NCBI RefSeq assembly: GCF_026586675.1
Contig: NZ_JAODIX010000055.1
Span: forward strand, 1-38,299
Direction of reading: 5' to 3'
DNA: 38,299 nt
DNA from: Halorubrum yunnanense
GTDB taxonomy: Archaea > Halobacteriota > Halobacteria > Halobacteriales > Haloferacaceae
The position numbers were made by a program, and so were the translations under genes. Below the pieces are notes generated by a model. It was not told the DNA's origin. It saw only the letters and a program-made list of their open reading frames with translations, and ran no database searches. This document shows positions 6,083 to 30,692 of the stretch, one piece after another (the stretch's first letter is position 1; each line of letters opens with the position of its first letter).

Positions 6083-6119
6083 GGCGGTCGGGCTGTGGGA
6101 CGGGCGGTCAGCCGAGAGG

Positions 6120-6272
6120 CTCGATCTCGAACACCGATGCGGCCGGCGCGCGACGTAAGGACCGCAAGGAGCGAGCAACGGGAGCGGCTGAGGACCGCAA
6201 CGAGCGCACCGAGCCGTCGCGACTGGGGCTTTGGCGGTGCTCGCCGTCAATCTGCTGTCAGCGACTTATAAA
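6120..6272 (-). repeat. Dispersed TTTATA-headed repeat, copy A
   Basis: On the minus strand this starts TTTATAAGTCGC near 6272 and continues to CACCGCCAAAGCCCCAGTCG and CGACGG at 6214. It then runs into GC-rich arms with wording like CGCTCCCGTTGCTCGCTCC. The stretch 6214-6238 matches copy B (6722-6747) exactly in inverted orientation over about 26 nt. It fills most of the 370-nt gap before the ferredoxin gene. No gene is visible in it. Confidence 0.75.
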
Positions 6273-6419
6273 CGAGCAGCCGCGGTGTTGAAGATGACCG
6301 TCTCCAGGGCGATTCCGTATCCGCGTCTGTGTCGATCCGCGACCGGTTCGGTACGGGATAGAGACAATCCGGCGTACGGCGTCGCCAGCGCTTTGTACCG
6401 CCTCGTCGAACCAGAGGGT

Positions 6420-6662
6420 ATGCGCGTGAAGTTCGACCGCGACACCTGCGTCGGGATGTACCAGTGCGTCGCCGAGTGGGACGCCTTCGAGAAGAACCTG
6501 AACGACGGGAAGGCCGACCTGCGGGGGAGCGAGGAGGAAGACGACGACGTGTTCGTGGTCGAGGTGCCCGACGGCGAGGAGTTCGACGCGAAGTTCGCGG
6601 CGCGGGTCTGCCCGGTCGACGCCATCGAGGTGTACGACGACGACGGCGAACAGCTGGTGTAG
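6420..6662 (+). CDS. Single-cluster ferredoxin, three-cysteine type
   Basis: This 80-residue acidic ferredoxin resembles the [3Fe-4S]/[4Fe-4S] single-cluster ferredoxins that feed electrons to P450s and other redox partners. Cysteines are at 10 and 16 (DTCVGMYQC, a C-x5-C spacing) with a third in ARVCPVDAIEVYDDDG near residue 62. The usual second Cys of C-x2-C-x2-C is replaced, so a [3Fe-4S] cluster, or a [4Fe-4S] cluster with a non-Cys ligand, is expected. The middle is a long acidic insert (RGSEEEDDDVFVVEVPDGEEF). I chose ATG 6420 because MRVKFDRDTC matches family N-termini; the open frame to 6231 crosses a repeat. It is flanked by inverted copies of a dispersed repeat, and no partner gene is adjacent. 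Confidence 0.9.
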   Translation: MRVKFDRDTCVGMYQCVAEWDAFEKNLNDGKADLRGSEEEDDDVFVVEVPDGEEFDAKFAARVCPVDAIEVYDDDGEQLV

Positions 6663-6688
6663 TAGGACTCCAAATTTTCGCTCGGCCG

Positions 6689-6943
6689 CTTATAGGTCGT
6701 TACTGGCGGATCGACGGTGAACACCGCCAAAGCCCCAGTCGCGACGGCCCCTTTGAATCCCACCCGGCCGCACCGCAACCGCGGCCTCACACCTCCCCAG
6801 CCTCGCGGTTCGCGCTCTTCGAGCGCTCACCGCGTCCAGCGAGGGACCTCCGGTCCCTCTGGCAGCCGGCGCGTAGCGCCGGCGACCTCGCACGCTCCTC
6901 GCGCCCTTATCAGGGCGCTCGGAGGCGCGCGCCGAGATAAACA
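6689..6943 (+). repeat. Dispersed TTTATA-headed repeat, copy B, with a row of hairpins
   Basis: The copy starts with TTATAGGTCG (6690), then CACCGCCAAAGCCCCAGTCG (6722-6741), CCCCTTTGAATCCCACC and CCTCCCCAGCCTCG. It then holds four perfect or near-perfect hairpins (6812-6826, 6842-6858, 6865-6883, 6901-6918) and ends GGAGGCGCGCGCC near 6933. The order of blocks matches copy D at 30317-30610. It fills the gap between the ferredoxin and hemB genes; no coding sequence is supported. Confidence 0.8.
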
Positions 6944-30258: not shown

Positions 30259-30315
30259 TTTATTTATATATCGTCGGTGGTGCCGCGGTGAACGCTTCGA
30301 AAGCCCTAGCCGCTC
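30259..30315 (+). repeat. Dispersed TTTATA-headed repeat, copy C (short)
   Basis: It starts TTTATTTATATATCG, then GCGGTGAACGCTTCGAAAGC and CCTAGCCG. It is directly followed by the head of copy D, giving a tandem pair of heads. Confidence 0.65.
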
Positions 30316-30316
30316 G

Positions 30317-30610
30317 TTTATAAACGGTCGAGTAGGGATCGCCGGTGAAGCCCTCCAAAGCCCCAGCCGCGCTCGGCTCCCACAGCTCGCTGCGCTCCTC
30401 GTCACTCGCTCCGCTCGTTCCTGCGGTGCTTGCGTCGCTGGGGTTCGCCGAGCGCGACTGCCCCTTTGAGTCCCACCCCGCACGGCACCGCGCCACACGC
30501 CTCCCCAACCTCGGCGGACGGCCCGGCGCGGGCAGAGCCGCGCCGGCCCGCCGCCTCCCTCGCACGCGCTCCTCATGGCCGCCAAGGGCGGCCACTCGGA
30601 GGCGCGCGCC
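30317..30610 (+). repeat. Dispersed TTTATA-headed repeat, copy D (long)
   Basis: It starts TTTATAAACGG, then GGTGAAGCCCTCCAAAGCCC, CAGCCGCG, CCCCTTTGAGTCCCACCCCG and CCTCCCCAACCTCGG. A GGCGCGG/CCGCGCC hairpin follows near 30530, then the hairpin TGGCCGCC-AAG-GGCGGCCA and the end GGAGGCGCGCGCC. The block order equals copy B (6689-6933). It and copy C fill the 442-nt gap between the methyltransferase and the Cys-cluster gene; no gene is supported. Confidence 0.78.
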
Positions 30611-30692
30611 GACCGGCGTCTGTATATAAATGCAGATTCGAAATCCGGCGATCCCTTTTAAGTGTGTAAACCGTTCGCACAGTTGATCTCCC

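Follow-up and report, generated by a model that had tools for sequence, protein, structure and literature searches.

Enterobacterial ERIC sequences are imperfect palindromes of ∼130 bp, intergenic and non-coding, which are present in tens to more than 100 copies. REPIN and REP sequences are extragenic hairpins of 20–40 nt, which also occur as inverted pairs and are long-lived at their sites. ERIC, or the intergenic repeat units of enterobacteria (PMC2759123), and REPIN/REP with its RAYT transposase (PMC3116915) are among the closest known systems to the element described here. In Haloquadratum walsbyi, the PATE and SMR elements are short, contain palindromes and encode no transposase; the palindromes of PATE lie near the termini and are IS605-like (one is a 22-bp repeat), whilst SMR-A inserts into other repeats with no target duplication (PMC3119063).

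In its behaviour the present element is most like the ERIC or REPIN repeats, and it has some habits in common with PATE and SMR. It differs from ERIC in its haloarchaeal host, a preferred strand, invariant internal loops, a polar array of 57-bp units and the extra hairpins attached to it. Unlike REPIN and REP sequences, its central hairpin, P3, is 134 nt long, and several high-copy genomes have no match to a Y1 transposase; inverted doublets occur (all 19 close pairs in G026), as do many single copies. Membership of the REPIN/RAYT class by way of a Y1/HUH transposase was rejected, as 15 of the 42 genomes had no Y1_Tnp (PF01797), among them G026, G104 and G008 with 86, 69 and 53 copies. It differs from PATE in that no IS605 gene was seen to recur beside P3, the comparison being with the published description of PATE (PMC3119063). 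Membership of IS605 is not supported. As regards the terminal inverted repeats and target-site duplications of MITEs, inverted P3 pairs occur in some families. Like the structured RNA families of Rfam, the element combines covarying stems with invariant loops; its complete copy D gave no match in Rfam 15, even at E ≤ 1, and the only Rfam match in the window was to 16S rRNA. A literature search, judged by titles and abstract openings, returned no description of the element, with PMC12306157, PMC2841640 and PMC3119063 in scope.

We propose that this is a dispersed, non-coding, intergenic family of haloarchaea organised around P3, in which the fold of one strand is under selection, most likely as RNA; we put the probability of this reading at about one half. 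A haloarchaeal hairpin element that conserves its shape whilst changing its letters may represent an overlooked family of RNA or of mobile DNA.

Copies of the element in the window

The window, that is, the whole 38,299-nt stretch analysed, is one contig (C68) of a 3.17-Mb assembly of 116 contigs. The initial annotation had listed four copies, A–D, of a repeat with shared blocks. All of the blocks were found at their positions, but C is not a separate copy, being the distal 57-bp unit of the array that belongs to D. A covariance model of P3 (R1) matched the window at three places, which correspond to D, A and B (Table 1). In a blastn search of its own genome, B gave 100 matching pieces in about 40 places, and 37 further own-genome stretches were compared with the copies on both strands.

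In the orientation of the initial annotation, the element consists of one to five 57-bp units (TTTATAA ... GGTGAACACC ... CCAAAGCCCCAGCCG), followed by P3, a C-rich linker, the hairpins P2 and P1 and often an AT-rich box. The initial annotation described the repeats as TTTATA-headed. The defining part is instead P3, an imperfect hairpin that B and D carry on their minus strand, and the head lies at the 3′ side of this selected strand. D is a complete element with two 57-bp units; A, which runs opposite to B and D, is truncated. In B, the inner part of P3 is missing and a 50-bp double-hairpin insert is present; P3 at this site is full-length in four orthologues (L147, L151, L152 and L154).

Table 1. 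Positions of the elements and their parts in the window
Feature	Coordinates	Strand	Basis
Element A: truncated P3 (6119–6245) and one 57-bp unit remnant	6119–6272	+	R1 match, 71 bits
B, single 57-bp unit	6689–6745		Sequence; array walk
B, P3 with inner hairpin deleted	6716–6764	-	R1 match, 43 bits
B, linker	6765–6803	-	Alignment of copies
B, hairpin P2	6804–6834	-	Sequence; by-eye comparison with other copies
B, 50-bp double-hairpin insert	6837–6886		Sequence comparison; pattern search of own-genome loci
B, hairpin P1	6894–6933	-	TATA/P1 scan
D, distal 57-bp tandem unit (copy C of the initial annotation)	30259–30315		Sequence; unit arrays
D, P3-proximal 57-bp unit (TTTATAA ... CCAAAGCCCCAGCCG)	30316–30372		Sequence; array walk gives two units
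D, P3, 134-nt core hairpin, overlapping the proximal unit	30344–30477	-	R1, 131 bits; covariation
D, linker, with conserved GAGG(C/T)TGGGGAGG on the minus strand	30478–30512	-	Alignment of copies
D, hairpin P2, sequence variable	30513–30555	-	Sequence; by-eye comparison with other copies
D, hairpin P1 with tandem GA/GA internal loop	30558–30610	-	Alignment A4; pair counts
D, TATA-like box upstream of P1, candidate promoter	30623–30630	-	Strict box ≤45 nt upstream of P1 in 28/66 copies

Many elements contain a double-hairpin insert of 49–50 bp, which occurs in either orientation and at more than one position (window 6837–6886; L009–L015, L027, L029, L030 and L036). When the own-genome loci were searched with the insert pattern, all 14 matches fell within the element, and no target duplication was seen. 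The insert recalls the habit of SMR of inserting into PATEs (PMC3119063). A small ferredoxin-like gene lies between A and B, whose 57-bp sides both face it (window 6119–6764).

Conservation of the P3 fold

Alignment A1 was restricted to complete P3 hairpins, so that 30 of the 37 own-genome body matches were kept and copies without a complete P3 were dropped. On the minus strand, 95.4% of its cells are paired and both-sided change occurs at 21 of the 38 pairs; the number of both-sided cells is 127, compared with 36.5 after shuffling and at most 15 when the alignment was slid. A further alignment, A3, was made from 91 loci outside the Halorubrum sets, which yielded 110 matches at E ≤ 1e-6, none of them used for building the model. 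Here 96.8% of cells are paired, a figure raised by the fitting of this alignment to the model. Both-sided change is found at 32 of the 38 pairs of A3, with 957 both-sided cells against 274 shuffled, the counts for both alignments being taken over related sequences and not over independent events.

When the outermost pair is excluded, G·U exceeds A·C on the minus strand by 47:7 in A1 and 113:21 in A3. Folding of P3 on the plus strand is disfavoured, since the G·U pairs of the minus strand would there become A·C. The internal loops are close to constant: the GA/GA loops are present in 28/30 and 29/30 copies, and the GGG/GGG loop in 30/30 copies of A1 and 103/110 of A3. Taken together, the covariation, the excess of G·U and the near-invariant loops indicate that one strand has been selected to fold.

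Two loci (L183 and L176) hold short variants with the base motif of P3 only (GGTGGGA...GGGGC ... GGGGC), the inner stem being shorter and unrelated. The sequence GTGGGAnTGAAA, which stands at the 5′ end of P3 in all families, has what we take to be a likeness to the 3′ part of haloarchaeal CRISPR repeats.

P1 and a candidate promoter

For P1, 32 of 66 copies were chosen as complete-looking (alignment A4). Both-sided change occurs at 10 of its 17 pairs, and the GA/GA loop is kept in 30 of the 32 copies. A kink-turn was considered and rejected: the columns before the GA (11–13) pair with 39, 41 and 42 and show both-sided changes, which leaves no 3-nt bulge.

In 28 of the 66 copies, a strict TATA box lies no more than 45 nt upstream of P1, compared with 308 of 12433 background 45-mers (2.5%), the latter being drawn from all positions, coding included, so that the intergenic background may be higher. 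Most of these boxes lie 17–28 nt ahead of P1. The majority of P1 copies, including those of loci A and B, have no strict box. As a result of this promoter spacing before P1, RNA is favoured for Halorubrum. No conserved upstream motif was found in 49 loci outside the family. A promoter-like box had originally been placed in the head, and TTTATAA may indeed be a promoter; however, a better candidate in some copies is the TATA box that precedes P1, on the minus strand and at the opposite end of the element.

Distribution and copy number

The description of the repeats as a dispersed, hairpin-rich family was borne out by at least 116 matches to the P3 model (E ≤ 0.01) in their own genome, the best 150 first-look candidates having been scored; this clearly excludes that only the copies in the window exist, or that their blocks align as background GC-rich DNA. 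A relative assembled as one contig (G120) gave at least 136 matches, likewise among the best 150 candidates, and copies per genome range from 1 to at least 136. With stricter filters, an order-wide scan matched P3 in 218 of 293 genomes; the 75 genomes of the order that gave no match under these filters point to a patchy presence. In a sample of the phylum, 45 of 294 genomes matched, all of them within the order (45 of the 53 there), and none of the 241 genomes outside it did, order membership being read from a kinship-sorted list. Scanning of named genomes by pattern listed 80 loci, haloarchaeal without exception, in genera that include Halorubrum, Natronococcus, Haloterrigena, Natrinema, Haloarcula, Haloglomus, Halobaculum, Halorussus and Halovivax. 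The copies in the window resemble those of the named Halorubrum genomes, which suggests that genus for the window as well. Haloarchaeal plasmids hold few P3 places (34 in 26 records). Viral contigs gave no exact match to the P3 pattern and phages gave no blastn match, and a viral origin was rejected for want of such matches.

Genomic context

In 98 fetched sources the P3 model gave 116 matches, all of them outside the genes predicted by a codon-score caller. B sits between convergent genes, which is the commonest setting in its own genome (13 of the 37 places with both sides known). Among named genera the orientation of the genes flanking P3 is even (++19, --21, +-18, -+17), and a link to flanking gene orientation was rejected for this reason. 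Nor is there a replication-strand bias in G120, where 64 of 136 copies are on the plus strand and the strand switches 69 times, 67.8 being expected. When 416 neighbour proteins were clustered and the largest clusters judged by sequence, no transposase was seen among them, and they consisted of orthologous loci or ordinary genes; clusters of neighbour genes recur between genera. That no transposase family was seen to recur beside the element agrees with the earlier remark that it does not resemble a known insertion sequence. In low-copy genomes, the idea of a protein dedicated to the element and encoded beside it was likewise rejected, only ordinary genes being seen there. Two loci (L014 and L036) have ends directly adjoining the element that we take to be IS605-type-like.

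Outside Halorubrum, P3 also occurs alone or as inverted pairs 22–31 bp apart. All 19 close pairs in G026 are inverted, in ‘-+’ order with their 3′ sides outward, and in most of the 11 of these pairs that were read a sequence resembling P1–P2–linker lies between both P3s. In G120, 8 of the 10 pairs less than 2.5 kb apart have the ‘+-’ order, the same as that of A and B around the ferredoxin-like gene.

Persistence and turnover at orthologous sites

Ten loci were compared for site D: the element is present in seven, degenerate in one and absent from one, and the tenth (L149) has no anchor. Of the twelve loci for site B, nine are filled and three are empty; the empty sites have only a few bases between the two stop codons, and the exact boundaries of the element could not be set. 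The likeness of P3 at the same site is 0.77 for D, 0.69 for A and 0.78 for B, compared with 0.76 for own-genome paralogues. Orthologous P3s thus resemble one another no more than paralogues do: the sites last whilst what they contain is replaced, in line with gene conversion or repeated replacement. By the same token, a change observed at a site is not necessarily a compensation that took place there. This pattern of fixed sites and changing content offers a natural archaeal system for concerted evolution. In two congeners (L150 and L153, at sites B and D), the base of P3 encloses an inverted inner part, and inversion of the hairpin thus occurs.

Interpretation and alternative explanations

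What the sequences show is the wide distribution, the intergenic placement, the compensatory change, the strand asymmetry, the invariant loops, the fixed sites and the polar growth of the units beside P3. If the fold is that of an RNA, the Halorubrum unit of P1, P2, linker, P3 and 57-bp units would form a small RNA gene, transcribed in part from the TATA box ahead of P1; its folded hairpins would bind a protein, and recombination between sites would homogenise its copies. The family would then be an abundant haloarchaeal structured RNA missing from Rfam 15, with more than 100 loci in some genomes. We consider unlikely a more far-reaching version, in which a multi-copy structured RNA common to all haloarchaea (up to ∼136 loci per genome) joins a common ribonucleoprotein through its GA-hairpins, and the hairpin drives growth of the 57-bp array in one direction as a CRISPR-like record of duplication.

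G·T pairs in single-stranded DNA would produce an equal strand asymmetry, which is thus compatible as well with P3 being the recognition hairpin of a non-autonomous element of REPIN or PATE type, mobilised in trans by a strand-specific endonuclease and with the inverted P3 pairs as its ends. The inverted pairs themselves (all 19 close pairs in G026, and those 22–31 bp apart in other families), the range of 1 to at least 136 copies, the empty sites and the even orientation would all suit such an element, which would be a new one whose usual Y1 partner is missing in several high-copy genomes. However, G026, G104 and G008 have no Y1_Tnp match in spite of their 86, 69 and 53 copies, no enzyme family was seen to recur beside P3, neither a target duplication nor a clean boundary could be shown, sites are common to several species, and matches were lacking in viral contigs (exact pattern) and phages. 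We regard mobility through single-stranded DNA as possible, if somewhat on the unlikely side.

It is improbable that P3 is a cis-acting RNA hairpin at messenger ends, serving as terminator or 3′ stabiliser as some REP sequences do. Its invariably intergenic location, the position of B between convergent genes and the prevalence of that setting in the same genome (13/37) would accord with such a role, but in named genera the orientation is even, with 17 of 75 P3s between divergent gene starts, and no T-run was noticed after P3 in the copies viewed. It would also be conceivable for P3 to be palindromic DNA with no folded function, its complementarity arising from arm-to-arm mutational correction together with gene conversion; orthologous P3s are as different as paralogues, and hairpin inversions occur. 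Such correction would erase the GA/GA and GGG/GGG mismatches, yet these are nearly invariant, and it would give no preference for G·U over A·C. The constant mismatches and the G·U bias thus speak against mere palindrome correction and for one folded strand, and correction without a folded function is disfavoured as very improbable.

Growth of the 57-bp arrays

We walked 59 Halorubrum arrays, 20 of them with at least three units, by a procedure that required a recognisable motif and so missed strongly decayed distal units. In 16 of the 20 arrays, the two units adjacent to P3 resemble each other more closely than the next pair do; in four the likeness is equal and in none is it lower, which indicates that new units arise beside P3. 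The P3 hairpin may cause the duplication of the adjoining unit, for example by replication slippage. Whether the fold is one of RNA or of DNA, the polar arrays make hairpin-driven tandem duplication directly testable. The 57-bp units (e.g. window 6700–6735) contain CACCTCC, preceded in many copies by GGATC and corresponding to GGAGGTG on the opposite strand; the combination of GGATC and CACCTCC resembles the 3′ end of 16S rRNA.
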